Below are positions 10,247-54,398 of a DNA stretch of 64,000 nt, piece by piece (the stretch's first letter is position 1; each line of letters starts with the position of its first letter). Where the stretch lies: the NCBI GenBank assembly GCA_016125475.1, contig WGLR01000036.1:124001-188000 (forward strand). The letters are read 5' to 3'. The stretch comes from Betaproteobacteria bacterium. GTDB taxonomy: Bacteria > Pseudomonadota > Gammaproteobacteria > Burkholderiales > Ga0077523. The notes beneath the pieces are model-generated. The model worked only from the letters and a program-made list of their open reading frames with translations. It was not told the origin of the DNA and did no database searches. The translations under genes were made by a program, and so were the position numbers.

Positions 10247-10271
10247 CGAGGCTTCCCGCAAGGGGATCCGG

Positions 10272-12826: not shown

Positions 12827-12831
12827 GTCGG

Positions 12832-13854: not shown

Positions 13855-13863
13855 GCCAGTCAT

Positions 13864-13889: not shown

Positions 13890-13909
13890 GGTCGCCTGCC
13901 CCGACGCTG

Positions 13910-15259
13910 TCAGGTGTAGCTTCCGAGCTTACAGCCAAACGCGTCCGGTTTCTGCATCAGCGGGCCGCCGTCGACGACTTCCACCACGTCGTAGTAGTCG
14001 TCGGCGCTCTTCATCGCGCCCGGCTTCTTGCCCTTCACGATGATGACCGGACGCACGAGCTGGTGATCTTCGGGGCGGAAGTGCACGGGGCCGACGGTCG
14101 ACTGGACGGTCTTGCCCTGCTCGTAGGCCTTGATCACGTCGACCGGATAGAAGCTGCCGGCCCGCTCGACGGCATCGGCCCACATCGCGACCTGCATGTA
14201 GGCCGAATTCGCCCCCCACTCGGGCATGTAGTTGTGCTTCTTGAAGAATGCTTCGTTGAAGAGTTTCGCCAGCGCGAAGCGGTCCTGCACGGTCCACCAG
14301 TAGTCGGTGCCCGCGTACACGCCCTGCATGATGTTTGCCCCCACTTCCTTTGCGAGGAAAGGCGTGTTGTACGGCATCACGAGCGTCATCTGGTCGAGGA
14401 TGCCGAACTGCTTCGCCTGCTTGATGGAAAGCACTGCATCCCGGCCGAAGTTGATGTTGATGACGACGTCCGCACCGGAGTTGGCGACGTTGAGCAGGTG
14501 CGAGGAGAAGTCGGTCGTGCCGAGCGGCGAAATCTGATTGGTGGCCACGGTCCAGCCGCCCAGACTGGCGAGAGCGTCCTGCATGGACTGTCGGACCGTG
14601 TGACCGTAGGTGTAATCCGGCGTCAGGAAGGCGATCTTCTTGTTGCGGCCGAGATTCTTGACGAGCACGGGGCCGATCGCGTTCGCGGCCGTCTCCGCAT
14701 AGAAGCACTGCCGGAAGGAGTAGCGCACGCAGTCCTTGCCTGTCGTGTCGTTCGACCCCGTGATGCAGGGGAGATAGATCACCTTCTCGCGTTCGGCGAG
14801 CTTGTTGATCGCGACGGCGACCGCGCTGGACACGGACCCGCTGATCATGATCGCCTTGTTCTCGCTGATGAACCGAGACTGGGCCTGGACCGCCGTGTTG
14901 GGCTTGGCCTCGCTGTCGGCGATGCCGTATTTCACGGTCTTGCCGAGCACGCCCTTGCGGATCCTGGGGGAGATCCGGTGCATGAGTTCGTTCCCCGAAT
15001 TCAGGTGCTCGATCGCGAGCTCGTAGCCCTTGATCTCGTCCTCGCCCTGCGCCGCATAGGTGCCGGTGCGCGGCGTGCAGATGCCGATGAACACGGAGGA
15101 GCCTGAGGTGCCCGCCGGGTAGTTGCCGAGTGCGGGCTTGTCGGCCGCAAGCGCGTTCAGCGGGAAACCGGAACCGAGCAGGGTCGCGCCGGCGAGTCCT
15201 GCACCCGCCTGCAGGATTCGGCGACGGGACGGCGGGTCGTTGGAATCACGGTAGTCCAT
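13910..15259 (-). CDS. Periplasmic substrate-binding protein of HAAT ABC transporter (LivK-like)
   Basis: A 449-residue type I periplasmic binding protein that should capture the substrate for the Liv-type importer encoded downstream. The N-terminus has a twin-arginine signal (SRRRILQAG followed by a hydrophobic stretch, cleavage near ALAA), so folded export by Tat is likely. The early segment GICTPRTGTYAAQGEDEIKG and the mid-region ITGSNDTTGKD are typical of the Peripla_BP_6 family. It is longer than LivK proper (about 370 residues), and the ligand could be an amino acid, amide, urea or aromatic acid; the sequence does not decide. First gene of the transport unit; its promoter should lie in 15260-15388. 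Confidence 0.88.
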   Translation of the reverse strand: MDYRDSNDPPSRRRILQAGAGLAGATLLGSGFPLNALAADKPALGNYPAGTSGSSVFIGICTPRTGTYAAQGEDEIKGYELAIEHLNSGNELMHRISPRIRKGVLGKTVKYGIADSEAKPNTAVQAQSRFISENKAIMISGSVSSAVAVAINKLAEREKVIYLPCITGSNDTTGKDCVRYSFRQCFYAETAANAIGPVLVKNLGRNKKIAFLTPDYTYGHTVRQSMQDALASLGGWTVATNQISPLGTTDFSSHLLNVANSGADVVININFGRDAVLSIKQAKQFGILDQMTLVMPYNTPFLAKEVGANIMQGVYAGTDYWWTVQDRFALAKLFNEAFFKKHNYMPEWGANSAYMQVAMWADAVERAGSFYPVDVIKAYEQGKTVQSTVGPVHFRPEDHQLVRPVIIVKGKKPGAMKSADDYYDVVEVVDGGPLMQKPDAFGCKLGSYT

Positions 15260-38321: not shown

Positions 38322-40367
38322 ATGGAGGATTCGAGCTTGTTCGGATGGCTGCGTCGCAGGCGCGAACGTGTCCCCGCGAGCCGCTTCAGCGAAACGCAGC
38401 GCACGGCACTCGAGGCGCGGGCCGAAGACGCCGTTCGGGCCGGGGATCTCGTGGCTGCAAGCGAGGCGCTGGGCCCGCTGCTCGGTGACACGGTCGTTCA
38501 CGCGCATGCGTCACACCTCGCCGGCATCGTGGCTTTCCGTTCGGGCGACTTTGCAGCGGCCGACACCCACCTTGTCACCGCCACGGCGACGGATCCGGCA
38601 CGAGAGGCGTCGTGGCGCGCACTCGTCGAGGTGCGCGAGGCACTGGATCGGCCCGCAGCCGCAGTCGAAGCCGTCCGGGGGTTGCTGGCACTCGTGCCCG
38701 GTGACGCGGATGCGCTGTCCGGTCTGGTCCGGGCGCTCGCCGCGGCAGGCCGTCACGACGAGGCGATCGAGGCGTGCCGGATGCACCGTCTGCTCGACTG
38801 GCAGTTCGACACGGATCGAAACCCTGCCGCCGTGCTGCACGCCCAGGGACGCCTCCGTGACGCCGTCGATCTTTTGCGTAACCGGATCGCAGCGGATCGC
38901 GCGAATCCGTCACTCTGGGGCTACCTCGGGTGCACGCGGCAGGCACAGGCGCACCTCGATACGGCGATCGCGTGTTTCCGGGAAGCCGTGACCCTGGATG
39001 CGGGGTCGCCTGTCGCGCGACGGCGGCTCGCGCGTGCACTCGCTGCCGTCGGCGAACTCGATGCCGCACTGGAGCATCACGACGCGGCCGTCGCGCTCGT
39101 GCCGGACGATCCCCGGGCGCATTCGGACCTGTTCGCGGCCCGCCTCTATGCAGGCTGGCCGAGCCGCGAGGCACGCGAGGCGGCCCATCGGAGGTACGAC
39201 GAACGCTTCGGAGCCGCGCGCTTCGCGCCCGAGTCCGTGGCGCGCCCCGCGTCCGCTGACGGCCGCATCCGGGTGGGCTACGTGTCCGGAGACTTCCGTG
39301 AGCACGCCCTCATGCACTTCCTCGAGCCGGTTCTGGCGCGCCATGATCGCGGGCGCTTCGAGGTCTGGTGCTACGACCGGACGGGCCAGCGCGATGCGGT
39401 GACCGCCCGTCTCGAGACGATGGCCGACCAGTGGCGGCGCGTGCGCGGTGATTCCTGGGACGAACTCGCGCGCCGGATCCAGGACGACCGCATCGACATT
39501 CTCGTCGACCTGAAGGGGCACTTCGACGACAGTCATCTTCCCCTGTTCGCGCGGCGTCCCGCACCGGTCCAGGTGACGTGGCTCGGCTATCCCGGAACGA
39601 CGGGGCTCTCCGCGGTCGATGCGTGTCTGACGGACGACCATGTCGCCGCCGACTTGCGTGACGACTACGCTTCCGAGGCCATCGTGTCCCTCGGCCCCGT
39701 CTTCGCGTGTTTCCGTCCACTCGATTGCGCATCCCGACCTGGCCCTCTGCCGATGGCCGGTCGCGGTCATCCCACGTTCGGGTGCTTCAACGACTTCGCG
39801 AAAGTCAGTCCGGCCATGCGCGAAGCGATAGCGGAAATCCTGCGGCGCGTGCCGGAGGCGCACTGTCTCGTGACGACCGTCCCGGACGGGAATACCCGCC
39901 GGCACCTCGAGGCGTTCTTCGCCGAGCGGGGGATCGATCCGGCGCGGGTGGAAATCCGGGGACGGGGGCGCCACGACGAGTTCCTGCGATGGCACGACGA
40001 GATCGATGTGTCGCTGGACAGCTTTCCCTGCAACGGGAGGACGACGACGCTGCACTCGCTCTGGATGGGCGTGCCCGTCGTGACACTCGCCGGCCATACG
40101 CACGCCTCCCGCGTCGGTGCCAGTATCCTCCTGAATCTGGACCTTGCGGACTGGATGGCGCACGACGTCGAGGAATACGTCGGGATCGCCGTCCGCGCAG
40201 TGACCGATACGCGGGCGCTTGCCGCCCTGCGTGCGGACCTCAGGCATCGGCTCGCGGTTTCGCCGATCATGGACGAGACGCGGTTCTCGAGAAGGCTCGA
40301 ACGCTGTTACGACCGGTTGCTGCGTGCCCACGCCCTTTCCGAAGCGACGGAGGTACAGGAATGCTGA
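38322..40367 (+). CDS. TPR O-GlcNAc-transferase-like glycosyltransferase (GT41), array gene 1
   Basis: A 681-residue protein with N-terminal TPR helices to about residue 290 and a GT41 (SPINDLY/OGT) catalytic region. Diagnostic pieces are VGYVSGDFREH near 319, PVQVTWLGYPGTTGLSAVD, TFGCFNDFAKVSP, and the UDP-site loop GRTTTLHSLWMGVPVVTLAG near 572. It should move a sugar from a nucleotide donor to Ser/Thr of protein targets; donor and targets are unknown. No signal, so cytoplasmic. The start at 38322 gives an LFGWLRRRR opening similar to the KW motif of the other array members. Its stop overlaps the next start by seven bases. Confidence 0.88.
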   Translation: MEDSSLFGWLRRRRERVPASRFSETQRTALEARAEDAVRAGDLVAASEALGPLLGDTVVHAHASHLAGIVAFRSGDFAAADTHLVTATATDPAREASWRALVEVREALDRPAAAVEAVRGLLALVPGDADALSGLVRALAAAGRHDEAIEACRMHRLLDWQFDTDRNPAAVLHAQGRLRDAVDLLRNRIAADRANPSLWGYLGCTRQAQAHLDTAIACFREAVTLDAGSPVARRRLARALAAVGELDAALEHHDAAVALVPDDPRAHSDLFAARLYAGWPSREAREAAHRRYDERFGAARFAPESVARPASADGRIRVGYVSGDFREHALMHFLEPVLARHDRGRFEVWCYDRTGQRDAVTARLETMADQWRRVRGDSWDELARRIQDDRIDILVDLKGHFDDSHLPLFARRPAPVQVTWLGYPGTTGLSAVDACLTDDHVAADLRDDYASEAIVSLGPVFACFRPLDCASRPGPLPMAGRGHPTFGCFNDFAKVSPAMREAIAEILRRVPEAHCLVTTVPDGNTRRHLEAFFAERGIDPARVEIRGRGRHDEFLRWHDEIDVSLDSFPCNGRTTTLHSLWMGVPVVTLAGHTHASRVGASILLNLDLADWMAHDVEEYVGIAVRAVTDTRALAALRADLRHRLAVSPIMDETRFSRRLERCYDRLLRAHALSEATEVQEC

Positions 40368-41884
40368 AGTGGCTCGCGGGCCGACGGACACCACGCCCGG
40401 CCCCGGAAGAACTCGCAGAACGGGCAGACAGCCTGCTGGCGGCGGGAGATCTGGCTGCGGCGGAAGGCACGATTCGCGAAGCGCTCGACCGGTCGCCACG
40501 CGATGCACGATTGCACGCCAGGCTCGGCACGATATTTCACGCCCGCGGCGACCGGGACGGTGCGATCGCCGCATACAGGGAGGCATGGTCGTTCGACCCC
40601 GCGTATGCGCAGATGCCCTACAACCTCGCGATCGCCGAGGCGGAACGGGGGAACGTCGCGCTTGCCGTGGAGCGTTACCGTGAGGCGATCGCGCTGCGTC
40701 CCGATTTCCTGGAGGCGTGGTTCAACCTCGCGTGCCTGCACTTCGAGAACAACGACGCCGGTGCCGCGCGCGAGGCATACGTGCGGGTGCTCGAACTGGA
40801 CCCTGCCCACGTCGAGGCCCGGCTGGGCCTGGGTGTGGTGCTGCAGGAGATGAGGTCGCTCGAAGAATCCGAGCGCGAATTCGATCGTGTCCTCGAAGCG
40901 GATCCCGCGAATGCGGGTGCGAACGTGCACAAGAGTTTCAACGCCCTCATCCGCGGGGACCTGCGCGAAGGCTGGCGCCGCTACGCGTATCGATGGCAAC
41001 TCCCGGCGATGGTGGAGTACCGGCGGCACTACCCCGTGCCTCGATGGCAGGGAGAGAATCCGGGCGGGCTTCGCATTCTCGTCTACCCGGAACAGGGCTT
41101 CGGTGACATCCTGCAGTTCGTGCGGTTCGTGCCCAGGCTCGTCGCGGCCGGCGCCCACGTGATTCTGGAGGCTCCGGGTGCGCTATGCCGGCTTTTCGGT
41201 TCGCTCGAAGGTGTCGAACTCGTCCCGATGCGGCAGGCGCTGCCGCCGTTCGACCGGCACGTGTCGATCATGGATCTTGCCGAGTATCTGGCTCCGTCCC
41301 TCGAGGACGCCGGCATGCGAGCCCCCTACCTGACTGCCGATCCCGACGACGTCGCACGCTGGCGTGCCCGCGTGAGCAAGGATCACGGCTTCAAGGTCGG
41401 AATCGCGTGGTCGGGAGACCCGCGACCGGACGTGCCCGACGCGGCCCGCATCGACCGGAAGCGGAGTCTTTCCTTCGACCAGTTGCGGCCGCTTGCCGCG
41501 GTGGAGGGCGTGTCGTGGTACAGCCTGCAACTCGGCGCGCCGGCCGCTCAGGCCAGGAGGCCGGGGGCGCCGCTGGCGCTCGTCGATTTCACGTCGGACC
41601 TGCATGACTTCGCGGACACGGCCGCGCTGATGATGGCGCTGGATCTCGTCGTCACGGTCGATACGTCCGTCGTTCACCTCGCGGGAGCTCTCGGGCGGCC
41701 CGCGTGGATGCTGTCACGCTTCGACGGATGCTGGCGCTGGATGCTCGAGGGAGAAGACTCTTCGTGGTACCCGACCGTGAGGGTGTTCAGGCAGGGCGAG
41801 GCCGGGAACTGGGCGCCCGTGCTGGAAGCGTTGTCCCGGGCTCTGCGCGATCGCGTCGGCCTGGCCCGCGAAGGCACCGCGTGA
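40361..41884 (+). CDS. TPR protein with GT9-like glycosyltransferase domain, array gene 2
   Basis: A 507-residue protein starting MLKWLAGRR. Residues about 15-215 are TPR repeats. The C-terminal domain differs from its neighbours: YPEQGFGDILQFVRFVPRL near 241, VGIAWSGDPRP, YSLQLG, and MALDLVVTVDTSVVHLAGALGRP near 430 resemble the heptosyltransferase-like (GT9) fold often fused to TPRs. Predicted to be a cytoplasmic sugar transferase; acceptor unknown. The seven-base overlap with gene 1 indicates translational coupling. Confidence 0.85.
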   Translation: MLKWLAGRRTPRPAPEELAERADSLLAAGDLAAAEGTIREALDRSPRDARLHARLGTIFHARGDRDGAIAAYREAWSFDPAYAQMPYNLAIAEAERGNVALAVERYREAIALRPDFLEAWFNLACLHFENNDAGAAREAYVRVLELDPAHVEARLGLGVVLQEMRSLEESEREFDRVLEADPANAGANVHKSFNALIRGDLREGWRRYAYRWQLPAMVEYRRHYPVPRWQGENPGGLRILVYPEQGFGDILQFVRFVPRLVAAGAHVILEAPGALCRLFGSLEGVELVPMRQALPPFDRHVSIMDLAEYLAPSLEDAGMRAPYLTADPDDVARWRARVSKDHGFKVGIAWSGDPRPDVPDAARIDRKRSLSFDQLRPLAAVEGVSWYSLQLGAPAAQARRPGAPLALVDFTSDLHDFADTAALMMALDLVVTVDTSVVHLAGALGRPAWMLSRFDGCWRWMLEGEDSSWYPTVRVFRQGEAGNWAPVLEALSRALRDRVGLAREGTA

Positions 41885-41933
41885 CGGACCTTCCCGGTGC
41901 CGGCGACGGCGTGCGTCGAACTGCGACGACCTG

Positions 41934-42245
41934 CTATTTCTTGTTCTGGGCGAGGCGGACGACCATGCCGCGGGTGAGCTTCTCGATGAACCCGTCGGTG
42001 TAGCCGATCTCCTTGAGCTGCCAGCGGAACGTGTTGCCGAGCTTTGCCTTGCGATAGAGGCCGAGCCTGTTCTCCTGGTGAAAACGAATCGCGCGCCCGT
42101 AGATCGCTTCCGAGACGACCGAATACTGACTCGTCACGCCCTTGTCGGTGCGCCCTTCGTTGGCAGGCGGAAAGCGCCGCGCAAAGTCCTGCGCGAGAGA
42201 CTTCGCGAAGTCGTCCACCTTCCGCGTGTCGAAAATGCCTAGCAT
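41934..42245 (-). CDS. Conserved hypothetical protein inside the glycosyltransferase array
   Basis: A 103-residue basic, soluble protein (MLGIFDTRKVDDFAKSLAQD...), with RRFPPA and a C-terminal RGMVVRLAQNKK. It looks like a small conserved protein found in betaproteobacteria, but I cannot give a function. It is the only minus-strand gene between 36 and 48.8 kb and splits the array into 2 + 3 genes. Codon use looks like that of its neighbours. Confidence 0.75.
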   Translation of the reverse strand: MLGIFDTRKVDDFAKSLAQDFARRFPPANEGRTDKGVTSQYSVVSEAIYGRAIRFHQENRLGLYRKAKLGNTFRWQLKEIGYTDGFIEKLTRGMVVRLAQNKK

Positions 42246-42380
42246 GGTTCAAGCAGCTCCGTGACTGGTGACAACAGGTCGCGACGGGCCGACGTGCGCC
42301 GGCCGGAGGCGATCGACCAAAGGGTGCCATGACGATGGCACAAGTATACTATCCGCCACTGCCTCATCCGACCGCTCCTG

Positions 42381-44288
42381 ATGCTCAAGTGGTTCACGAA
42401 CGTCCTGTCGAGGCGGATGGCGACACCGCGATCGACAATGAGTAACGGCGCGAGCCCGGCCATTCTTGATGGTGCCGATCACCCGGTTTCTCCCGATGTG
42501 CTGAAGCAGGAAGGCGACCGGCTGTCCGATCTGGGCCGGCTCGACGAAGCCGTGCGCGCCTACAGGCGCGCTGTGGCCGCGGATCCCGGGCACGCCGGCG
42601 CATGGAACAATCTCGGACTCGTCCTGTTTCACGGGGGCGACATCGACGGTGCCGCTTCGTCGTACGAACGTGCCCTCGAAGCCGACCCGCGGCTCGTCGC
42701 CGCCTGGATCAACCTCGCCGCGGCGCAGGAAAGCCGGGGGGAATGGGAACTCGCGGCACGGAGCCTCGACGCGGCCATCGCGATCGACCCGGCGTCCCGG
42801 GAAGCCCGGAACAATGCGGGCGTGAACGCGCTCGCGCGCGGTCGTCCCGTCGAGGCATTCTCGCACCTCCGGAGGGGCCTGGACGCCCACGCCGGCGACG
42901 AGCGGCTGCTTCTGAATACGGCCCGGACGCTCGGTGCGCAGGGCCGCATCGAAGACGCGCTCGACCTGTACCGTGTCGCACTCGAATCAGGCGCGCACAG
43001 TGCGGATCTCATCCACAACTACCTGCTGGCCCTGAACTACGCCGGACATCTCTCGCCGGAGCAGGTCCACGACGAACATCGGCGGTATGCCCGCCTTGCG
43101 GTCCCGACGCCTCCCGAGAGTGTTCCCTGGCCGGGAACGGGCCGACGCCCGGGCCGACCGCTGCGCGTCGGCTTCGTTTCGGCCGATCTGGGTTTCCACG
43201 TCGTGAGCTTCTTCATGGAGGGGGTGTTTCGGGAACTCGATCCTCTGGCCGTCGAGACATTCGTGTACTTCGCGGGAGGCGGGGAGGATGCACAGACCGG
43301 CCGGTTGCGCGAGCGCGTGGCGGCCTGGCAGAACATCACGCACGAAGGAACGGAGGACTGCGTGCGCCGTATGCGCGCCGACGCACTCGACGTGGCGGTC
43401 GATCTCTCCGGCCACATGGCAGGAAACAGGCTCGACGTCTTTGCGTGGCGCGTGGCGCCGGTTCAGGTGACCTGGCTCGGTTATCCCAACACGACCGGTA
43501 TGCCCGAGATGGACTATCGCCTCACCGACGAGTGGGCCGACCCGTCGGGCCGGACCGACCACCTGCACACCGAGAGACTCTGGCGACTGCCCGGTGGATT
43601 TCTCGCGTACGGACCGCGGGCGGAAGCGCCTCCGGTCTCGCCTTCCCCCTGTCTCGCGAATGGCCATGTCACGTTCGGCTGCTTCAACAATCTCGCGAAG
43701 GTCTCGCAGAACACGCTGATGATCTGGGCATCCGTGCTCGACCGGGTGCCCGGCGCGCGCCTGTTCGTCAAGGCACGCGGTCTGGGCGAAGCGGAAACGG
43801 CGAACGGCCTTCGCGCGCGTTTCGCGGACCTCGGCGGCGACCCGGCGCGGCTGGACATCGAAGGGGATCTGCCCGGGTTTGCCGACCACCTGCAGGCATA
43901 CGGCAGGGTCGACATCGCACTCGACACGACCCCGTATTGCGGGACGACCACGACCTGCGAGGCGCTCTGGATGGGGGTTCCCGTGGTGTCGCTCGCGGGG
44001 AGTGCCCATGTCTCGCGCGTCGGCGTCAGTCTGTTGAATCAGGTGGGTCACCCGGAGTGGGTCGCTCAATCCAGTGACGAACTTGCCGATATCGTGGAAA
44101 GGTTGTCGCGCGACGCGACATGGCTTGCCGACGTGCGGAATCGCCTCCGCGCCGAGATGGCGGCGAGCACGCTCACGAACAGCGTCAGGTTCGCCCGGGT
44201 GCTCACGGACGCCCTGTACGGGATGCACGAGGAGCAGGTTCGCTCCGGACGACCCACCCTCATGGGGAAACTATGTTCAAGTGGTTGA
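42381..44288 (+). CDS. TPR O-GlcNAc-transferase-like glycosyltransferase (GT41), array gene 3
   Basis: A 635-residue protein beginning MLKWFTNVLSRRM. TPR repeats occupy about residues 30-220. The GT41 region contains VGFVSADLGFHVVSFFMEG near 263 (with the catalytic-type His), PVQVTWLGYPNTTGMPEMDY, TFGCFNNLAKVSQ, and TTPYCGTTTTCEALWMG near 515-530. It resembles the array neighbours strongly in the catalytic part, pointing to tandem duplication. Cytoplasmic; acceptor unknown. The end overlaps the next gene by 16 bases. Confidence 0.9.
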   Translation: MLKWFTNVLSRRMATPRSTMSNGASPAILDGADHPVSPDVLKQEGDRLSDLGRLDEAVRAYRRAVAADPGHAGAWNNLGLVLFHGGDIDGAASSYERALEADPRLVAAWINLAAAQESRGEWELAARSLDAAIAIDPASREARNNAGVNALARGRPVEAFSHLRRGLDAHAGDERLLLNTARTLGAQGRIEDALDLYRVALESGAHSADLIHNYLLALNYAGHLSPEQVHDEHRRYARLAVPTPPESVPWPGTGRRPGRPLRVGFVSADLGFHVVSFFMEGVFRELDPLAVETFVYFAGGGEDAQTGRLRERVAAWQNITHEGTEDCVRRMRADALDVAVDLSGHMAGNRLDVFAWRVAPVQVTWLGYPNTTGMPEMDYRLTDEWADPSGRTDHLHTERLWRLPGGFLAYGPRAEAPPVSPSPCLANGHVTFGCFNNLAKVSQNTLMIWASVLDRVPGARLFVKARGLGEAETANGLRARFADLGGDPARLDIEGDLPGFADHLQAYGRVDIALDTTPYCGTTTTCEALWMGVPVVSLAGSAHVSRVGVSLLNQVGHPEWVAQSSDELADIVERLSRDATWLADVRNRLRAEMAASTLTNSVRFARVLTDALYGMHEEQVRSGRPTLMGKLCSSG

Positions 44289-46993
44289 AGCGAAAGGATG
44301 CCTCCGCCGAGGATGGCCGGGCGCTCGTCAAGTCGGGGTACGAACGGTTCCAGAACGATGATCTAGACGGTGCGGCGGACGACTTCTCCGCGGCGTGCTC
44401 CGTCGATCCGGGAAACGCCGACGCACACTATCTGCTCGGGCTCGTCGCACTGCGACGCGGTGCGCCGCTCGACGGCCTGCGTCACGTCGATGCCGCGATC
44501 GCGCTGCAGCCGGACAATGCCTTCTTCCTCTATTCGCGGGCGGATGCCCTCAAGGTACTCGGCAAGACGTCCGAAGCGATCGACTGCCTGCGGCGGGCGC
44601 TGGTCCTCGATCCGAGCGACGTCAAGTGGTGGCTCGAACTCGGCTCGATGCTCGCGGACGCCGGCCGGGACGACGAAGCGCTCGACGCGTGGCGCGAGGT
44701 GGTCGCCCGCGATGGTTCGAACGTCGTGGCGCTCTGGGAATTCGGGCGCACCCTGAAGCGGGTCGGCCGCGACGACGAGTCGGCCGAGGCGCACGCCCGA
44801 GCAGAACGACTGGCATCCGCCTCGACCGACGCAACCTTCGATCTGGCGCTGCACGTGCAGAGCCGGTCACAGCACGAGGAAGCCGCCAGGCTCTACGGCA
44901 CCATACTCGAGGCCGATCCCGTGCATCGCGCGGCGCTCGCGAATCTCGGGGCACTCGAAACCGCTCGTGGCGACCACGCGCGAGCGCTGGAGCTGCTCGA
45001 GCGTGCCGTTGGGACGTATCCGGACTACGTGGAGGGCTGGATCAACCTGGCCACCGCATTGCGCCTGGTCGGACGGCTCGACGAGGCTCGGGACGCGCAC
45101 CTCCGCGCGCTCGAGATCACCCCGGCCTCGCGTGAACTGAAGATGGAGTACGCCACGACGCTCGATCTCATCGGCGAGCGTGCCCAGGCTGAAGCCGTGT
45201 TGCACGAGGTGATCGCGATGGAGCCCGGTGCGTCGCGACCGCATTACCTGCTCGGCCAGGTACTTCATGCGCAGGGACACTTCGACGAGGCCGAACTCGA
45301 ATTCCGGCGTGCCCACGAATGCGCGGGTGGTTCGTCGGAGGCCCTCATCGACCTGCTCATGGTCCAGATCAAGCTGGGGAGGCTGCGCGAGGCCGCCGTC
45401 GTGCTCGACGAAGTGCGCAAGCTGATGCCCGAAACGGCCCTCGCGTACAACAACATCGGGATCGCCCTCCAGACACTCAAGCGCCCGGACGAGGCGGAGG
45501 CAGCGCTCCGGCGCGCCGCCGAGATCGACCCGCTGACACCCGTCCCCCACGTGAACCTCGCCAACCTCCTGAATCTGGCGAACCGGTACACGGAATCCGA
45601 ATCGGCAGCGCGGCAGGCGCTCGAGCGCGATCCCAGCAATGCGGACGCGCTCGGCAACCTCTCCGTCTCGCTCAGCGCACAGGGCCGCCACGCCGAGAGC
45701 ATCGAGGTGATGCGGCGAATCGTCGCGATGCAGCCGGACAACGGGCAGGCGTGGAGCAATCTGCTGTTCACGCTCAACTACCGGGAAGACCTCGGTCCAC
45801 TCGAACTGCTCGACGAACACCGGGCATTCGACGGGCAGTTTGCACCACCGCCGGGCGAGGAACGCAGCTTCGAGGCATGGGACCGTCGTCCGGACCGCAA
45901 GCTGCGGATCGGGTACGTGTCTCCGGATTTTCGTCAGCACGTCGTGGCGTTTTTCTTCGAGCCACTGCTCGACCACCACGACCGCGATGCCTTCGAGGTG
46001 TTCTGCTATTACAACCACGCGGTCGCCGACTCCACGACCGGTCGCCTCAAGCAGAAGGCCGATTACTGGCGGGACATCGCGGCGCTCTCGGACGACGAGG
46101 TCGAGAGGATCATGCGCGAGGACCGACTCGACATCGCGGTCGACCTCGCCGGGCACACCGCGAAGAACCGTCTGACGGTGTTCGCGCGCCGCGTCGCGCC
46201 CGTCCAGGCGACGTGGCTCGGGTATCCGAACGGCACCGGGCTGCGAAATGTCGACTGGCGAATCACGGACGCGCACGCGGATCCGTCGCCGGAAACCGAC
46301 GCGCACTACGTGGAACGGCTGTGGCGTGTGCCCGACGCCTTTCTCGTCTATCGTCCGGCCGCCGACAGTCCCGAGGTCGTGCCGACTCCCTGCCTGTCCA
46401 CGGGACAGGTCACCTTCGGTGCGTTCAACAATTACGTGAAGGTCACCGACGAGATGCTCGCGGTCTGGGTGCGGATTCTCGAAGCCGTACCCGGTTCGCG
46501 CCTGCTCGTGAAGACGCTGGCCCTCGCGGACGAGCAGGTCCGCGATCTCGCCACGGAGCGGTTCGTCGCCGCGGGCGGAGACCCGAAGCGACTGGTGTTG
46601 CTGGGGCCCACCAAGACGTTTCGCGACCATCTCGCGACGTATGGTCAGGTGGACGTCGCGCTCGACACCTACCCCTATCACGGCACGACGACGACCTGCG
46701 AGGCGCTCTGGATGGGGGTGCCGGTCGTGACGCTCGCCGGCCGCCACCATGCCGCGCGCGTCGGCGTGAGCCTGCTCGCCGCCGTCGGCCTCCAGGAGAA
46801 TGTCGTTCATTCCACCGCGGAGTACGTGGACAGGGCCGTGCAACTCGCCGCGGACCCTGTTCGTCTCCAGGCGCTCCGGACGACCATTCGAAGTCGCGTC
46901 GAAGGATCGCCGCTCGTGGACGAACGGCGGTTCGCGGCGGCGATGAAGGACGCCTATCGCGGCATGTGGCGCGAATGGGTGCAGCCTCGCTGA
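44273..46993 (+). CDS. Large TPR O-GlcNAc-transferase-like glycosyltransferase (GT41), array gene 4
   Basis: The longest member, 906 residues, starting MFKWLKRKDAS. About twelve TPR units fill residues 15-510, an acceptor-binding superhelix of the size seen in eukaryotic OGT. The catalytic region has GYVSPDFRQHVVAFFFEP near 547, PVQATWLGYPNGTGLRNVDW, TFGAFNNYVKVTDEM, and TYPYHGTTTTCEALWMG near 800. Start chosen from the shared M-F/L-KW opening; the frame open to 44120 is out of phase with gene 3. Overlaps of 16 and 19 bases with its neighbours imply coupled translation. Confidence 0.9.
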   Translation: MFKWLKRKDASAEDGRALVKSGYERFQNDDLDGAADDFSAACSVDPGNADAHYLLGLVALRRGAPLDGLRHVDAAIALQPDNAFFLYSRADALKVLGKTSEAIDCLRRALVLDPSDVKWWLELGSMLADAGRDDEALDAWREVVARDGSNVVALWEFGRTLKRVGRDDESAEAHARAERLASASTDATFDLALHVQSRSQHEEAARLYGTILEADPVHRAALANLGALETARGDHARALELLERAVGTYPDYVEGWINLATALRLVGRLDEARDAHLRALEITPASRELKMEYATTLDLIGERAQAEAVLHEVIAMEPGASRPHYLLGQVLHAQGHFDEAELEFRRAHECAGGSSEALIDLLMVQIKLGRLREAAVVLDEVRKLMPETALAYNNIGIALQTLKRPDEAEAALRRAAEIDPLTPVPHVNLANLLNLANRYTESESAARQALERDPSNADALGNLSVSLSAQGRHAESIEVMRRIVAMQPDNGQAWSNLLFTLNYREDLGPLELLDEHRAFDGQFAPPPGEERSFEAWDRRPDRKLRIGYVSPDFRQHVVAFFFEPLLDHHDRDAFEVFCYYNHAVADSTTGRLKQKADYWRDIAALSDDEVERIMREDRLDIAVDLAGHTAKNRLTVFARRVAPVQATWLGYPNGTGLRNVDWRITDAHADPSPETDAHYVERLWRVPDAFLVYRPAADSPEVVPTPCLSTGQVTFGAFNNYVKVTDEMLAVWVRILEAVPGSRLLVKTLALADEQVRDLATERFVAAGGDPKRLVLLGPTKTFRDHLATYGQVDVALDTYPYHGTTTTCEALWMGVPVVTLAGRHHAARVGVSLLAAVGLQENVVHSTAEYVDRAVQLAADPVRLQALRTTIRSRVEGSPLVDERRFAAAMKDAYRGMWREWVQPR

Positions 46994-48828
46994 GGCGGCT
47001 GTTTGCGGCGCTGAGCGGGAGGCGGGCAGAGCCCGCCCCGGTCGAACTCATCCGTGGCGCACTCGAATGTCATCATCGGGGTGAGACGGATGCGGCGATC
47101 GACCTGCTCGATCGGGCGACCCGCATCGCGCCCGCTGATGCCGAAGCGTATTTCGTCCGGGGGCTGCTGCGCGACGAGGTCCGGCCCGGTGAGGGCGTCG
47201 ATGACATGCGGCTGGCGGTGCAGCGTTGTCCTGGCGTTTCGCGCTACCGGTTCGCACTCGGCGAGGCATTGCGACGCCAGGGGGCCTGCGGCGAGGCGAT
47301 CGACCAGTTCGAGGCCGGTGTCGACATCGACCCCGACGATCCCGAGCGATGGGCTCAACTCGGCGATCTCTGTCTCACTCTGGGCAGGTTTGTCGCCGCC
47401 GAAGGCTACGCGCGCCGGGCGCTGGACCTCGATTCCGGCAACGAGTGGGCGCTACACCTCGTCGGACAGGCCCTGCGGGCGCAGGGGCGGAGCGCCGATG
47501 CGCTGGAGACATTCCGGCTGCTCGCGTCCCGGGAACGGGACTTCGGAGACGGCGCGAAGTCCCTGCTGCTGACGTGTCACTACTCGGATGACGTCACGTG
47601 CGAACAGGCCTTCGAATGGCACCGCGAGTTCGCGGGGCGCCTGTCGCAGTGGGGGGCTCGAGGTGACGCCGGGGCGCCCTGGGAGGTGGCCCCTGCGGTT
47701 CTCGGTCATGCCCGCCGGATGCGTATCGGTTACGTTTCCCCGGACCTCGGGCAGCACGTCGTGAGCTTCTTTCTCGAGCCTGTCCTGCGTGCCCACGATC
47801 GGCGGGAGGTCGAGGTGTTCGTGTTCGACACGCGCAATCTCGCGGACGCGCAGACGGCTCGCATGCGGGATCTCGTCGAACACTGGCAGGTGGTGTCTCA
47901 CCTGGACGACGCAACCCTGGCGGAGACGATCCGCGCGTGCGAGCTCGACGCGGTCGTCGATCTGTCGGGACACACCGCCGGACAGAGGCTCGGTGTGTTC
48001 GCGCGACGTGTCGCGCCCGTTCAGCTGACCTGGCTCGGTTATCCCGGGACCACCGGCATCCCGGCGATCGACTACCGTCTCACCGACACCACGTGCGATC
48101 CCGTGGGCCTGACCGACGCGCTGCACACCGAGAAACTGTGGCGGCTGCCCGGGCCGTTTCTGTGTTACGGGCCAAGAGCCGACAGCCCGGCGTTGCGGAC
48201 GCATGCCCCTCGTGAGGCGCGCGGCTACGTGACGTTCGGCAGCTTTTCCAATTTCGCGAAGGTCAGCGACACGACGCTGCGGATGTGGGCGGACGTGCTC
48301 GCGCGTGTTCCCGCCGCGCGGTTGCTGCTCAAGTCCAGAGGGCTCGACGAGCCGTCGCTGGGCAGCCGACTGCGGGAGAGATTCGCGGCGCTAGGAGGGG
48401 ATGCGGCCCGACTCGACCTGGAAGGTTTTTCCGGGGGGCTGTCCGAGCACCTCGCCCGTTACGGCGATGTGGACATCGCGCTCGACACCTATCCCTACCA
48501 TGGCACGACGACGACCTGTGAAGCGCTCTGGATGGGGGTGCCGGTCGTGACACTTGCGGGACGGTCACATGTATCGCGTGTCGGCGCATCCCTGCTGGCG
48601 TCCGTCGGGCACGCGGAGTGGGTGGCGAGTTCGGCGGAGGAGTATGTCCGCATCGCGACCGCCCTTGCGACGGGCGCGCTCGAACTGCCTGTCGGTTCAC
48701 GTCTGCGCGAGCAGATGCGGCGGAGCCGCCTGTGTGATGGCGATCGGTTCACGCGTGCGCTCGAATCGGGAATCAGGCAGATGCTCGAGCAGACCAGTCG
48801 GGAGAGGGCGCGAGCGTCCGCGGACTGA
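46975..48828 (+). CDS. TPR O-GlcNAc-transferase-like glycosyltransferase (GT41), array gene 5
   Basis: A 617-residue protein starting MGAASLRRLFAAL at an ATG inside the end of gene 4 (19-base overlap). TPR repeats span about residues 25-190. Catalytic motifs are GYVSPDLGQHVVSFFLEP near 252, PVQLTWLGYPGTTGIPAIDY, TFGSFSNFAKVSDT, and TYPYHGTTTTCEALWMG near 505. It ends the plus-strand array and converges with a COG4627-type methyltransferase gene, 32 bases away. Confidence 0.89.
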   Translation: MGAASLRRLFAALSGRRAEPAPVELIRGALECHHRGETDAAIDLLDRATRIAPADAEAYFVRGLLRDEVRPGEGVDDMRLAVQRCPGVSRYRFALGEALRRQGACGEAIDQFEAGVDIDPDDPERWAQLGDLCLTLGRFVAAEGYARRALDLDSGNEWALHLVGQALRAQGRSADALETFRLLASRERDFGDGAKSLLLTCHYSDDVTCEQAFEWHREFAGRLSQWGARGDAGAPWEVAPAVLGHARRMRIGYVSPDLGQHVVSFFLEPVLRAHDRREVEVFVFDTRNLADAQTARMRDLVEHWQVVSHLDDATLAETIRACELDAVVDLSGHTAGQRLGVFARRVAPVQLTWLGYPGTTGIPAIDYRLTDTTCDPVGLTDALHTEKLWRLPGPFLCYGPRADSPALRTHAPREARGYVTFGSFSNFAKVSDTTLRMWADVLARVPAARLLLKSRGLDEPSLGSRLRERFAALGGDAARLDLEGFSGGLSEHLARYGDVDIALDTYPYHGTTTTCEALWMGVPVVTLAGRSHVSRVGASLLASVGHAEWVASSAEEYVRIATALATGALELPVGSRLREQMRRSRLCDGDRFTRALESGIRQMLEQTSRERARASAD

Positions 48829-48860: not shown

Positions 48861-49388
48861 TCAGGCGCGCCGGCGCGCGGTCACGTTGCAGCTGATCGGG
48901 ACACCCTTGAAGGTGTAGGTGCTCGTATCGTCGAAGAGGCCGAAATCGTCGACGCGCCGCACGTCCGTGAATCCCGCCGCGTCGAGATACATGCGCAGGA
49001 ATTCCTCGTTGAGGCCCGTCAGGTGGTAGTCGGACTCGTCCGTGTGGCCGCCGAACATCATCCTCATCACGAGCCAGCGGTCTTCGAGCGAGAGACTCTC
49101 CCGGAGCAGGAACATCTCCGCGAGGATGTCGAGGTCCGGGATGCTGACGTACAGCGTGCCATCCGGGTGCAGCACGCGACGCCATTCCTTCAGCACGTCG
49201 AGCAGCCGCTCCTCGGCGTAGTCGAAGTGTTCCAGGACATGCGAGGCATACAGGGCGTGGAACGACTCGCTGGCAAATTTCGAAAGGTCGGAGGCGTCAC
49301 CCACGTGATCCACTTCGGGCCGGGAACTCGCGTCCAGCACCTCCCAGCCATTGGTCCGGATGCGTCCACCAATGTGCAGTCTGCGCAT
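48861..49388 (-). CDS. Predicted SAM-dependent methyltransferase, COG4627 type
   Basis: A 175-residue protein of the group annotated as predicted SAM-dependent methyltransferases that open with a (K/R)LHIGG motif in place of a classical GxGxG loop. It has LHIGGRIRTNGWEVLDA, the DASDLSKF region, LYASHVLEHFDY, GTLYVSIPDLDIL, and a C-terminal FGLFDDTSTYTFKGVPISCN. Such genes often sit next to TPR glycosyltransferases or surface polysaccharide genes, as here. Its substrate is unknown; methylation of a glycan or glycoprotein is one possibility. It is 171 bases downstream of pilA on the same strand, beyond the pilA terminator. Confidence 0.85.
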   Translation of the reverse strand: MRRLHIGGRIRTNGWEVLDASSRPEVDHVGDASDLSKFASESFHALYASHVLEHFDYAEERLLDVLKEWRRVLHPDGTLYVSIPDLDILAEMFLLRESLSLEDRWLVMRMMFGGHTDESDYHLTGLNEEFLRMYLDAAGFTDVRRVDDFGLFDDTSTYTFKGVPISCNVTARRRA

Positions 49389-49559: not shown

Positions 49560-49991
49560 TTAGACTTTCGGCAGGTACTTGGAGGGAACGCTGCCGCTGA
49601 CCGTCCAGCGGTTGCCGGCGGCGTCACACGTCGAGGTCCAGACGATGTTCGAGCCGTTGACGGCCGAGTTGATGTTCTGCAGCACGACCGTGACCGTCCC
49701 GGAACCGGTGGCACCAGCGAACGTGACGCTCGTCACGTACTTGCCGGAGATGGCGGTGGCGTCCGGGAGGCCGGCGGTGGAGTTGGTCGTGACATCGGTA
49801 CCCAGCGTGCCCTCGGAACATGCCTGGCCTGCGGCGAGACGCGCCGGGTCGGACATGGAAACGGCTTCCTGGATCTTCGCGCGGATCGTGTAATCCTGAT
49901 ACGCGGGCAGCGCAACGGCGGCCAGAATACCGATGATCGCAACGACGATCATCAGTTCGATAAGAGTAAAACCTTGCTGGATACGCTTCAT
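49560..49991 (-). CDS. pilA: Type IV major pilin
   Basis: A 143-residue type IVa pilin. The short leader MKRIQQG is cut by PilD before Phe, and the conserved helix [20 protein letters not shown] follows with Glu5. The C-terminal part is rich in Ser, Thr, Gly and Ala and contains two cysteines (QACSEG and TSTCDAAG), probably the disulfide loop. It forms surface fibres for adhesion, motility or DNA uptake. The start at 49991 has an AGGAG site. Regulation by sigma-54 is predicted from the promoter at 50057-50071. Its Ser/Thr-rich head makes it a candidate acceptor for nearby glycosyltransferases. Confidence 0.95.
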
Positions 49992-50290: not shown

Positions 50291-51955
50291 TCAGGCCGAG
50301 AACCCGGGAATCGTTACCGGATCCACGTCGTCGATCTGTTCCGGATCCAGAAACTGTCGCGCGTAGCGGAGATAGACACGCTCGCGCACGAAGATGTCGA
50401 ACAGGTCCGGATCGATGTGGCCGTTCAGCCTGAACCGCCCCAGAATGCCGAGCGACTCCGTCAGGGTCTTCCCTTTCTTGTAGGGACGGTCCTTCGCGGT
50501 GAGCGCCTCGAAGATGTCGGCGATCCCCATGATGCGTGCCTGCACCGACATCTGCTCGCGAAGCAGCCCGCGCGGGTAGCCCTTTCCGTCCATGCGCTCG
50601 TGGTGGCCGCCGGCGTATTCCGGCACGTTGTGGAGATGCTTCGGCCAGGGCAGGGCTTCGAGCATCTTGATCGTGACTTCGATGTGGTGGTTGATGATGT
50701 GGCGCTCCCGGGCGGTCAGCGTGCCGGCGCGAATCGTCAGATTCTCGACTTCGTCGGGCGAGAGGAACGGCTGAATCGAACCGTCAGGCCCGCGCCACGT
50801 GTACTTCCGGGCGATCTCGCCGATGCGCGCCTGGCTTTCGGGCAGCATCGCTTCCGAGCCGACGTTCGCTGCTCTGACGGATTCACGGTCGTCGTCGATC
50901 TCGCGCAGGCGACGCGAGAACGACTGCTCCAGGGCGGCGAGATCTGCCGTGTGGCCGGCAGCCTCTGCCGAGAGGCGCGCGCGCAGCATCTCGATCTCGG
51001 CGTCCCGCCGCACGACTTCGAAGCGTGTGTCCACGAGGTCGATCCTGTCGAAGATCGTCTGCAGTTTCGTGGCCTTGTCGACGACGTGCACGGGTGTGGT
51101 GACCTTTCCGCAGTCGTGAAGGAGGCCCGCGATCTTCAGTTCGTAGCGGTCCTTCTCGGTCATCTTCCAGTCCGCGAGCGGGCCGGATTTCGTGTCGTGC
51201 ACGGCTTCGGCAAGCATCATCGTGAGCACGGGTACACGCTCGCAGTGCCCCCCGGTGTAGGGGGACTTGTCGTCGATCGCTTCGTTGATCAGGTTGATGA
51301 ACGACTCGAACAGCTCCTCGAGCTGGGTGATCAGGAGGCGATTCGTGAGCGCGACGGCCGCCTGGGACGCGAGGGACTCGGCGAGTTGCCGGTCGGCCGC
51401 GCTGAACGGAACGATGGCGCCGGTTTCACGATCCTTGGCATTGATCAGCTGAAGCACGCCGATGATCTGATTCTCGTGGTTCTTCATCGGCACGGTCAGG
51501 AAGGATTTCGAGCGGTAGCCGGTGTGGCGGTCGAAGTCCTTCGTGCCCGAAAAGTCGAACCCTTCCGCGGAATAGGCATCCGCGATATTGACCGTCCGGT
51601 CTCTCAGCACGCTGAACGCCACGACCATGGAGGTGTTCTCGTGCCCGGATTCGTCACGGAGCCGGATCGGATCGAACGGGATCGGCCGGCCGGTCGTGCC
51701 CCCCATCGCGATCCCGAGCGCCTCGTTGCGGATGATCTCGAAGTGCAGCAGGTTCTCGTCCGCCGCGTGGCGACGGTAGAGCGTACCGCCCTCGGCGTTG
51801 GTGATCTTCTTCGCGGCCAGGAGGATGGCTTCGAGCAGCGCCGAAATGTCCCGTTCACGGGAGAGCGCGATGCCGATCCCGTTCAGTTCCTCGAGCCGCT
51901 GAAGCAGGTCTGCTGTCGCGATGTCCCCGTCTGTGGGCGGTGCCTCTTCGGACAC
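50291..51955 (-). CDS. GAF - HD-GYP protein, predicted c-di-GMP phosphodiesterase
   Basis: A 554-residue protein with a GAF domain at about residues 20-195 and an HD-GYP domain from about 215. The HD motif is HDCGK near 280 and the GYP motif is [11 protein letters not shown] near 447, both intact. About 165 residues separate them, far more than the usual 60 or so. The insert includes a charged coiled-coil-like stretch ([20 protein letters not shown]). HD-GYP proteins cleave c-di-GMP and often control pili. The gene lies 52 bases after the pilus ATPase gene and 300 before pilA, the last member of the signalling block. Confidence 0.9.
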
Positions 51956-52007: not shown

Positions 52008-54398
52008 TTACTTGATGCAGACCGCGCGCACCTGCTTCATGTCGGTGATGCCCTGCAGGACCTTTTCTATGCCGTCCTGCTTCAGCGTGCGCATCCCTTC
52101 CCGCAAGGCCGTGGCAAGAATGTCGGCGACCCGCGCATGCTCCTGGATGTGCCGCTTCACGTCTTCGCTGCCGATCAGGAGTTCGTGCAGGCCGACGCGT
52201 CCCTTGTAGCCCGTCCCGCTGCAGACGTCGCATCCGACGGGCGCGTACAGCGTGAACTGCCCCTTCTCGTTTGCGAACTCGCCGACCCACTCCTTGTACA
52301 TGGCCTCGAACGCGGCCTTCGGGTCGCGCTTCCATTCGTCGGTCTGACGGAGCTCCAGTGCGTACTCTTCGAGCAGCGCCCTGATCTCGTCCTGGGAGGC
52401 AACGTGCGACTGCTTGCACTTCGTGCAGAGGCGTTTCGCGAGGCGCTGGGCCAGTACGCCCAGCAGTGCGTCCGCGAAGTTGAACGGGTCCATGCCCATG
52501 TCGAGCAGACGGATCACCGATTCCGGCGCGCTGTTCGTGTGCAGCGTCGCGAAGACGAGGTGGCCGGTGAGGGAGGCCTCGATGCCGATGGCGGTCGTCT
52601 CCTTGTCGCGCATCTCGCCGACCATGATGACGTCCGGGTCCGCGCGCAGGAACGCGCGCATCGCGTTCGCGAACGTGACGCCCGCCTTCGGATTCATCTG
52701 GACCTGGCGAAGTCCCTTCTGCGTGATCTCCACGGGGTCCTCCGCGGTCCAGATCTTGGTCTCGGGCGTATTGATGTAGCCGAGAATCGAATGCAGCGTC
52801 GTCGTCTTCCCGGAGCCCGTCGGGCCGCACACGAAGAACAGCCCGTAGGGCTTCGATATCGTTTCCTTGACGTTCTTCAGGTTCCGACGGGACAGTGCAA
52901 GCTTGTCCAGCGGTATCGGCTCCCCCGCCGACAGGATACGCATGACGATGTCTTCGACGCCGCCCTGCGACGGGATCGTCGCGACCCGCAGCTCGATGTC
53001 GAGCGGGCCGAACTTCCTGAACTTGATCTTGCCGTCCTGCGGCTTGCGCCGTTCGGAAATGTCCAGGTCGCACATGATCTTGAGTCGAGCCGCGAGCGCA
53101 TTGCGGTAGGACGCGGGGACCGAGATGTACGGGAACAGCGTGCCGTCCTTCCGGAACCTCACCTCGGTCTTTCCTTTTCCCGGGAACGGCTCGATGTGGA
53201 TGTCGGAAGCGCCCTGGTGGTAGGCGTCGACGATGATCTTGTTCACGAGCCGCACGAGCTCGTTGTCCTGAGCGAGGGTGGCATCGTCGTTGGCGACGGC
53301 GAACTCCGCATCGGCTTCGTCGTCGAGCTTGTCGAGGAGCTCGCCCACGTCCCCCACGAAGTCCTCGCTGCCACCCATGCCGCCGAAGAACTGGTCGAGC
53401 GAAGCCTTGAATTCGCGCTGCGTGGTGACGGCGTACACGACTTTCGCGCGCGGGAAGATGTTGTTGACCATCCGCGACGCACGCAGACGCTCGGGGTCGG
53501 TCGTGAGAACGAGCAGGCCGTCCTTGTTCTCCTCGAGCGGCAGCCAGCCACTGCTTTCGACGAACTCGCGCTTCAGGTTGCGGAGGAGATCGGCCGGCTT
53601 GATCCGGTCCGGGCGAAACGCTTCGTAGGGCACGCCGAAGAATGCGGACACGGCCTCGCCGATGGCCTGCGGCTTGACCTGAAACTCGTCGATCAGGACA
53701 TCCTCGATGTCGAGACCCTTGCGTCGTGCCGAGCGCGTGGCGAGCTCGATCTCCTCGGCGGACAGTATCGCGTTGGTGACGAGGCCGTCGTACTTGCCAC
53801 GCAGGCTCATGACGGGCTTCTGGCGCTGCTTGAGCGCGATCGCGAGCGTCTCGCACAGGTTGACGGCCCCTTCTTCCGAGGGCTGTCCGAACGCGTCATC
53901 CGCCTTCGAGTTGATGATCTGGACGACCCCGACGAGTTCGTTGCTCCCGGATTCCAGGATCGGGACCACGAGCATCTGCTTCGTGCGATAGCCCGTGCGC
54001 CGGTCGACCTCCTTCAGGAACTTGAGCTGCGGACTCAGGCTGCGCAGCTCCTCCTCGTCGTACACGTCGCGAATGTTCACGAGCCGTTTGTGCATCGCCA
54101 CGAACCCGGCGACGCTCTGCTCGTTGACGGGGAGCTTGAGATCCTTGAACGAGGAAAGGCCCGTCTTCACCTTCGAGACGATCGAGGTGCGGTCCTCCGA
54201 GGCCGTGTAGATCGTGAGACGGTCCGCGTCGAAGAGATCGCAGATCTCCTGCGAGACCTCGAGCATGATCTCGTCGACGTTCGCGGTTGCATGGATCTTG
54301 TTCGTGACCGCCTGCAGCTTGCGCTGGAACTCGAGTCTGCTGCTGATCTCGGCCAGGTTCTGCCCGGGCTGGGGTTTCGATTCGATGACCGTGCTCAT
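52008..54398 (-). CDS. GAF-tagged type II secretion / type IV pilus assembly ATPase (PilB/GspE family)
   Basis: A 796-residue protein. Residues about 20-190 form a GAF domain similar to that of the downstream HD-GYP protein (both have TGYR-K, VPI and VVQIINSK-type segments). An MshEN-like N-terminal region follows, a module that binds c-di-GMP in several PilB/MshE proteins. The ATPase then shows ASDIHIEP, Walker A GPTGSGKTTTLHS, Walker B VIMVGEMRDKETT, and a C-terminal zinc knuckle CTKC...CDVCSGTGYKGR. It would power pilus extension or secretion. No PilC or PilT gene is near, so the cognate machine lies elsewhere. Confidence 0.92.
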   Translation of the reverse strand: MSTVIESKPQPGQNLAEISSRLEFQRKLQAVTNKIHATANVDEIMLEVSQEICDLFDADRLTIYTASEDRTSIVSKVKTGLSSFKDLKLPVNEQSVAGFVAMHKRLVNIRDVYDEEELRSLSPQLKFLKEVDRRTGYRTKQMLVVPILESGSNELVGVVQIINSKADDAFGQPSEEGAVNLCETLAIALKQRQKPVMSLRGKYDGLVTNAILSAEEIELATRSARRKGLDIEDVLIDEFQVKPQAIGEAVSAFFGVPYEAFRPDRIKPADLLRNLKREFVESSGWLPLEENKDGLLVLTTDPERLRASRMVNNIFPRAKVVYAVTTQREFKASLDQFFGGMGGSEDFVGDVGELLDKLDDEADAEFAVANDDATLAQDNELVRLVNKIIVDAYHQGASDIHIEPFPGKGKTEVRFRKDGTLFPYISVPASYRNALAARLKIMCDLDISERRKPQDGKIKFRKFGPLDIELRVATIPSQGGVEDIVMRILSAGEPIPLDKLALSRRNLKNVKETISKPYGLFFVCGPTGSGKTTTLHSILGYINTPETKIWTAEDPVEITQKGLRQVQMNPKAGVTFANAMRAFLRADPDVIMVGEMRDKETTAIGIEASLTGHLVFATLHTNSAPESVIRLLDMGMDPFNFADALLGVLAQRLAKRLCTKCKQSHVASQDEIRALLEEYALELRQTDEWKRDPKAAFEAMYKEWVGEFANEKGQFTLYAPVGCDVCSGTGYKGRVGLHELLIGSEDVKRHIQEHARVADILATALREGMRTLKQDGIEKVLQGITDMKQVRAVCIK

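Follow-up and report, generated by a model that had tools for sequence, protein, structure and literature searches.

Introduction

Glycosylation of type IV pilins is known as a periplasmic process carried out by membrane enzymes. Here, we describe an array of five same-strand genes, g1 to g5, for glycosyltransferases (GTs) with tetratricopeptide repeats (TPRs), which lies beside a type IV pilin gene and may serve to glycosylate that pilin in the cytoplasm. The array occupies positions 38322–48828 of the window, the 64,000-nucleotide stretch of DNA that was analysed (Betaproteobacteria bacterium, GenBank assembly GCA_016125475.1, contig WGLR01000036.1, positions 124,001 to 188,000). Four of the enzymes are of the GT41 family and one, g2, is GT9-like. 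Among GT41 enzymes, HMW1C is reportedly encoded next to its substrate. It is an N-glycosyltransferase that acts on an exported adhesin in the cytoplasm before export (PMC3012730). In FlmG of Caulobacter, the TPR N-terminus selects the filament subunit and a GT-B domain glycosylates flagellin in the cytoplasm (PMC7591256). In Pseudomonas, the glycosyltransferases TfpO and TfpW, which are unrelated, are encoded among the accessory genes of the pilins, and phage binding is affected (PMC11841053). Pilin-specific oligosaccharyltransferases (OTases) are encoded in linkage with the pilin, whereas general OTases are not (PMC12645811).

Like FlmG, g2 has a TPR N-terminus; from a weak local GT9 match, its C-terminus may be GT-B-like. 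The array differs from FlmG, to which g2 was likened by description, in adjoining a type IV pilin gene, in combining several transferases and in having a small partner, P0010. With OGT, SPINDLY, TtOGT and XcOGT (PMC9715652), g1, g3, g4 and g5 share the PF13844 domain and counterparts of the catalytic Lys and His; here, however, there are four copies in one array, and the g1 clade has lost the acidic residue of the nucleotide pocket and the stacking His. Cytoplasmic modification of a protein before export would resemble the action of HMW1C (PMC3012730), but HMW1C lacks TPRs and modifies Asn, whereas the array enzymes have TPRs and the pilin as their predicted acceptor. As with TfpO/PilO and TfpW, transferase genes are linked to the major pilin gene, a linkage that goes with dedication to the substrate (PMC11841053, PMC12645811); TfpO/PilO and TfpW, however, are OTase-like or GT-C-like enzymes of the membrane, whereas in the TPR enzymes of the array no such domain was recognised among the Pfam matches listed or by eye. 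In the open literature, a search of titles and the openings of abstracts gave no report of cytoplasmic type IV pilin glycosylation by TPR enzymes among the matches listed, subscription papers and preprints being outside its scope.

Linkage of the Array to Type IV Pilin Genes

The pilin gene lies 0.7 kb beyond the end of the array. It and the methyltransferase gene between it and the array were overlooked in a preliminary description of the window, which had proposed a dedicated protein O-glycosylation system serving different acceptors. The gene context argues well for putative dedicated O-glycosylation of protein; it does not favour different acceptors, the likely acceptor being a single neighbour, the pilin. 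On balance, we lean towards a module dedicated to this pilin, of which the array would form the enlarged transferase part; the pilin would undergo cytoplasmic, TPR-guided O-glycosylation as flagellin does by FlmG. In view of the genomic linkage, glycosylation of the pre-pilin by the array would be the simplest reading, with FlmG and HMW1C as precedents for such action.

This linkage was assessed in 80 genomes of the order, with proximity defined as within 5 kb and the expectation assuming random placement and independent genomes. GT41 domains were present in 41 of the 80 at E ≤ 1e-10 and g2-type domains in 39 at E ≤ 1e-8, while PF00114 pilins and flagellin were each present in 57. Of the 38 genomes that have a pilin and any TPR-GT, 10 had the two close together (0.46 expected), and 9 of 37 (0.45 expected) did so when the genus of the window was excluded. 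For TPR-GT9 enzymes the count was 9/26 (0.27 expected), and for GT41 enzymes at least 4/33 (0.22 expected), or at least 3/32 without the genus; the GT41 counts are among the matches listed and may be too low. Flagellin and TPR-GT9 enzymes were near each other in 7 of the 31 genomes that have the two (0.41 expected), which is a further likeness of the g2 family to FlmG, and flagellin was near GT41 enzymes in at least 3 of 34 (0.32 expected). As a control, a pilin was near flagellin in 0 of 44 genomes (0.35 expected). Since the locus is often found at the same chromosomal place, inheritance contributes to these counts.

GT41 genes occurred in all 12 genomes analysed from the family, all of them from one genus, with arrays recurring at the same place; the notion that the array is a one-off was rejected, and its recurrence here is more than chance. 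A pilin orthologue and GT41 genes shared a contig in eight of the 12 (G000, the genome of the window, and G002, G003, G004, G005, G007, G008 and G011), which is the linkage known from TfpO and TfpW. In eight congeners, the orthologues are 65–78% identical to the window pilin. The G001 pilin (70% identity) has an internal stop, and in G001 and G010 the pilin is close to the end of its contig, and the methyltransferase lies on that side. In G006 and G009, where the contigs with the array end in it or close to it, no close pilin was found. The stretch that separates the sox genes from the pilin contains a single TPR-GT in G008 and at least six in G004; wherever the extent of the contig permits, P0010 is found among or next to these genes. 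In G003, G007, G008 and G011, the GT41 closest to the pilin belongs to the g4 clade. Homologues of the methyltransferase were present in six loci (L043, L047, L049, L053, L109 and L110), beside the pilin in several congeners, and the HD-GYP and ATPase genes also border the pilin locus in other families. The G004 array also includes a 475-aa TPR protein in which no catalytic domain was recognised (L047, 7855–9282). In G002, one and the same major pilin is encoded three times in tandem (L111, G002:C16, 9146–10981), and no TPR-GT was found in the 19.5-kb stretch around these genes.

P0010, a Small Marker Gene

In the 80 genomes of the order, P0010 was found in 12. All 12 have a TPR-GT beside it, and in 11 the stretch also contains a pilin, no more than ≈12 kb away. 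A wider sample yielded P0010 in 43 of 300 genomes. Among 26 further carriers, a TPR-GT lay within ≈10 kb in 24 and a pilin in 18, and all 18 with a pilin also had a TPR-GT; GT41 was found in 13, 10 of which had the pilin too. The two carriers without a TPR-GT were G471 and G575, the latter being the weakest match. Pilin, TPR-GT and P0010 occurred together in 14 families. In a class-wide sample of 370 genomes, P0010 was found (E ≤ 1e-8) in two, that of the window and G213, which belongs to another order. In G213, too, it lies beside TPR-GT9 genes, and no pilin was recognised in the stretch around it. P0010 was not found on plasmids. Three genomes (G024, G034 and G039) have the pilin with its ATPase flank, no TPR-GT seen beside the pilin and no P0010, and therefore count against an explanation by the flank alone.

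The best match of P0010 in a profile search of the PDB had an E-value of 0.14. Its structure was modelled as four helices (mean pLDDT, the predicted local distance difference test score, of 77 for the best model; range 50–77 over five models), for which no fold match was found at E ≤ 0.001. In G021 (L141, G021:C31, 4822–8715), three pilin-like genes and a GT41 gene stand in a row, with a weak P0010 paralogue between a pilin-like gene and the GT41 gene and an ATPase gene in the same stretch; by its gene content, this locus repeats the module, in another version, within the genome.

Organization of the Array

The coordinates of the array and its flanks are listed in Table 1. The start sites, the five same-strand genes, the four GT41 domains and the gene overlaps of exactly 7, 16 and 19 bases were confirmed as in the preliminary description. 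Its five genes are not all adjacent, however, since the 496-base gap between g2 and g3 holds the opposite-strand gene P0010, which is conserved in relatives and interrupts the array. Upstream of the array are genes for a SoxY protein and a SoxA/TsdA-type cytochrome; past the ATPase gene follow those for a metallo-beta-lactamase-fold protein and then a CHASE2 cyclase.

Table 1. Coordinates of the array genes and their pilin-side neighbours in the window.
Feature	Positions	Strand	Description
g1	38322-40367	+	TPR + GT41, 681 aa; PF13844 182.8 bits; altered nucleotide pocket
g2	40361-41884	+	TPR + GT9/heptosyltransferase-like, 507 aa; architecture as described for FlmG
P0010	41934-42245	-	103 aa; without Pfam or NCBIfam family; marker of pilin/TPR-glycosyltransferase loci
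g3	42381-44288	+	TPR + GT41, 635 aa; PF13844 150.4 bits
g4	44273-46993	+	Long-TPR + GT41, 906 aa; PF13844 173.4 bits
g5	46975-48828	+	TPR + GT41, 617 aa; PF13844 162.7 bits
Class I methyltransferase	48861-49388	-	PF08241 37.5 bits; between array and pilin
Type IV pilin	49560-49991	-	Major-type, 143 aa, predicted acceptor; PF00114 48.5 bits, PF07963 39.7 bits
GAF + HD-GYP protein	50291-51955	-	Conserved pilin-locus flank; PF13487, PF01590
PilB/MshE-type ATPase with GAF domain	52008-54398	-	Conserved flank; PF00437, PF05157, PF01590

Pfam gave TPR matches in all five proteins; PF13844 was well above its cut-off of 25 bits in g1, g3, g4 and g5 and had no match in g2. The range of about 5 to 12 repeat units given earlier is corrected by the domain boundaries: the part preceding the catalytic domain, 225 (g2) to 540 (g4) residues long, allows at most ≈7 to 16 units of 34 residues. 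The GT41 motif set ascribed to four of the genes is present in part: WLGYP occurs in g1, g3, g4 and g5, and TTTTCEALWMGVPVV only in g3, g4 and g5, where g1 has RTTTLHSLWMGVPVV. An M-L/F-KW opening, said to be shared by four, is found as MLKW or MFKW in g2, g3 and g4 only, g1 beginning with MEDSSLFGW and g5 with MGAASLRRLF. No Wzy_C domain was found above the cut-off in g1–g5 among the Pfam matches listed (for g4, the best 25 of 28), but the TPR region of g4 matches PF11846 (Wzy_C_2) below the cut-off. When the array enzymes were read by eye, no GT-C domain or membrane span was recognised and no signal peptide was obvious.

In the C-terminal domain of g2, the match to PF01075 (GT9) falls just below threshold (21.1 versus a cut-off of 22); in an alignment of g2 relatives (A3), 12 of the 18 members match PF01075 at E ≤ 0.01, and an EQGxGD motif is invariant in both alignments of the family (A2 and A3). 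Judging from these matches, the catalytic domain of g2 is of a different kind from the GT41 domains of g1, g3, g4 and g5. A structure model of g2 from the single sequence was not used (mean pLDDT 51, poor in the C-terminal part).

Phylogeny and Active Sites of the GT41 Domains

The four enzymes had been thought to derive from tandem duplication. We calculated a tree of 126 GT41 domains and a second tree of 97 rows, with support from the Shimodaira–Hasegawa-like approximate likelihood ratio test (SH-aLRT). In the 126-row tree, g3, g5 and their congeners form one clade (nine rows, SH-aLRT 99) and g4 and its congeners another (eight rows, SH-aLRT 97). The two clades are sisters (17 rows; SH-aLRT 94 in the 126-row tree and 98 in the 97-row tree), and by this topology the split between g4 and g3/g5 predates the species. 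The g1 clade (nine rows, SH-aLRT 99) was placed apart in the free tree, which suggested a separate lineage. This was not upheld: with all 26 array sequences constrained to a single clade, the approximately unbiased (AU) test gave no rejection (p-AU 0.666), and the constrained tree was more likely. A common clade is found for g3, g4 and g5 and not rejected for g1; g2 has a different catalytic domain. A clade uniting the array with the GT41s of four other pilin loci (one each from G013, G020, G021 and G068; 30 rows) was rejected (p-AU 0.0007), so that GT41 enzymes probably reached pilin loci more than once.

Active-site positions were taken from SPINDLY (PMC9715652). Counterparts of the catalytic Lys (K665) and the active-site His (H495) are kept in 26/26 array sequences of the genus. 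The g3/g4/g5 types also retain the H728-like His and an acidic counterpart of E752 in all 17 sequences, whereas in the nine members of the g1 clade H728 is replaced by Phe and the counterpart of E752 (numbering by alignment) is never acidic. In the TTTxxE/D stretch, the acidic residue that corresponds to D925 of human OGT is present in 17/17 sequences of the g3/g4/g5 type, whereas 9/9 of the g1 type have His, Phe or Asn; other GT41s of the tree also vary at this position. Catalytic residues are thus not lost in several copies, the changes being confined to the pocket of the g1 clade; because the key residues are kept, all four GT41s of the array look catalytically competent, one of them with a divergent pocket.

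The best match to a solved structure was plant SPINDLY for g4 (E 1.2e-124) and, for g1, 5djs, which is presumably Thermobaculum OGT. SPINDLY is an O-fucosyltransferase (PMC9715652), and the earlier label of O-GlcNAc-transferase-like therefore overreaches with respect to the sugar, GlcNAc not being supported. Prediction of the sugar donor from sequence residues was attempted and was ambiguous.

Proposed Function and Alternatives

According to the module that we favour, the enzymes g1–g5 would act in the cytoplasm, as do FlmG, OGT and SPINDLY, and their TPR superhelices would bind the pre-pilin. Using nucleotide donors, the catalytic domains would transfer single sugars to Ser/Thr or, in part, to the sugar attached first, and would do so ahead of membrane entry by the pilin. 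Transferases with differing pockets (the g3/g4/g5-type GT41, the g1-type GT41 and the GT9-like g2) could assemble a short glycan or act at several sites, and the methyltransferase may cap the glycan. P0010 would be a small, probably helical partner in the pathway, perhaps an adaptor or, as a guess, a holding chaperone. From what is known of pilin glycosylation, the decorated pilus might differ in phage binding or adhesion, and since pilin sugars affect phage attack, the changing arrays could be phage-driven.

Several observations weigh against dedication to the pilin. The pilin gene is convergent with the array and outside its operon, and a listed pilin within 5 kb of a TPR-GT was absent from 28 of the 38 genomes with both. 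The linkage is partly inherited, HD-GYP and ATPase genes flanking the locus in many families, and judging by G471, where P0010 adjoins this conserved HD-GYP gene and no TPR-GT was found in 19 kb around, the flank alone may hold P0010 in place. No pilin appeared near P0010 in 8 of the 26 further carriers, some of them on short contigs. In G006, which has the array and P0010, no close pilin orthologue was found (best match at E 2.8e-8), but the contig ends within the array. The globular domain of the pilin ends up in the periplasm, so that a cytoplasmic enzyme must act before insertion, and we know of no pilin that is modified in this way. Ser/Thr content (22–32%, versus 19–29% in major-type pilins elsewhere, pseudopilin-like rows excluded) was dropped as evidence, for lack of contrast.

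The topological difficulty would disappear if the enzymes instead modified the MshE-type ATPase or the GAF/HD-GYP protein and so tuned pilus activity, in the way that OGT and SPINDLY act on regulators. OGT/SPINDLY-like enzymes do act on cytosolic proteins (PMC9715652), and the ATPase and HD-GYP genes are the usual pilin-side neighbours in many families. However, G024 and G039 have the pilin and the ATPase flank without any TPR-GT genome-wide at the thresholds used (in G039, the contig extends little past the pilin), G034 has both with GT41 only at another place, and the same enzyme families are found near flagellin elsewhere and beside a giant repeat protein in the genome of the window. We therefore regard such a regulatory role as unlikely. 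General O-glycosylation, in which the array would act on many proteins, exported or cytosolic, and its proximity to the pilin would be a matter of inherited synteny without functional meaning, is also rather improbable. The co-location counts are not independent, as several families have the locus at the same chromosomal place, and GT41 arrays were seen without a pilin in the stretch around them (e.g., L072 in Planctomycetia and L077 in Sterolibacterium); yet array content varies at the fixed place, the GT41s of the tested pilin loci do not form one clade, and the weak P0010 paralogue in G021 lies at a second locus with pilin-like and GT41 genes.

The slot beside the pilin has other occupants elsewhere. 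In G024, G034, G054, G056 and G086, which lack P0010, the pilin neighbour is a protein of 580–665 aa that reads as polytopic, with an FDD/YDD/SDD-like motif at the N-terminus in those read; the sole Pfam domain recognised was a C-terminal TPR, present in two, and by eye the proteins appear GT-C-like. In G065 and G055, the gene beside the pilin encodes a Wzy_C protein. TPR-GTs are present elsewhere in the genomes of G034, G054, G056, G065 and G086. By analogy with the TfpO and TfpW genes of Pseudomonas, this may be a pilin-modification slot filled by exchangeable genes. A conventional periplasmic OTase of the Wzy_C kind could glycosylate the window pilin, leaving the array to make or extend another product, e.g., a lipid-linked glycan or polysaccharide. 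In favour of this, the genome of the window encodes three Wzy_C proteins, and G055 combines a pilin, a Wzy_C protein, a TPR-GT9 and P0010; both facts also count against the favoured module. It is highly improbable, however, as the N-terminal TPRs of all five enzymes are typical of enzymes with protein acceptors (FlmG, OGT and SPINDLY) and the three Wzy_C genes are distant from the pilin, two on another contig and the third 99 kb away.

A broader proposal, which we make tentatively and with some doubt, is a third route of pilin glycosylation, in which soluble, TPR-guided GT41 and FlmG-like GT9 enzymes would decorate the cytoplasmic pre-pilin while a small, dedicated helical protein of the P0010 family keeps it accessible. 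At the pilin locus, such a route would be exchangeable with periplasmic OTases across many families of one order, and here it would take the form of a five-enzyme assembly line. If so, the sugar would have to be attached before or during membrane insertion, a point relevant to pilin translocation, and bacteria would have a soluble, TPR-programmable way of glycosylating filaments. It would also explain bacteria with several OGT-like genes, as enzymes that serve surface filaments (pilin, flagellin and secreted repeat proteins) rather than signalling of the eukaryotic style.

Related Loci

Of the six GT41 genes in the genome of the window (4.88 Mb in 48 contigs), four belong to the array and two lie elsewhere. 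At another place in this genome (L013, G000:C17, 3904–15999, minus strand), a 1716-aa frame combines one GT41 and two GT9-like domains. Beside it is a repeat protein of at least 2248 aa with a serralysin-type C-terminus (Peptidase_M10_C), with an ABC transporter nearby; the repeat protein is probably a surface protein exported by type I secretion that has a glycosyltransferase of its own. At L050 in G005, a flagellin gene is at least 2.6 kb away from two GT41 domains. From these two contexts, filament and secreted surface proteins are recurrent neighbours of such enzymes.

The arrangement had been considered undescribed, a view that proved too narrow, as tandem GT41 arrays occur in loci of Planctomycetota, Verrucomicrobiota and Pseudomonadota. 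Three loci (L069, L072 and L081), two of them from Planctomycetota, have at least five GT41 genes each, with a methyltransferase like P0008 among them, and the arrays of L069 and L081 are orthologous, with the same gene order. In L077, from a Sterolibacterium metagenome-assembled genome, two adjacent genes (9716–12079 and 12049–14328) have near-identical GT41 domains, and the short end branches (0.005 and 0.002) mark the pair as a recent tandem duplication.

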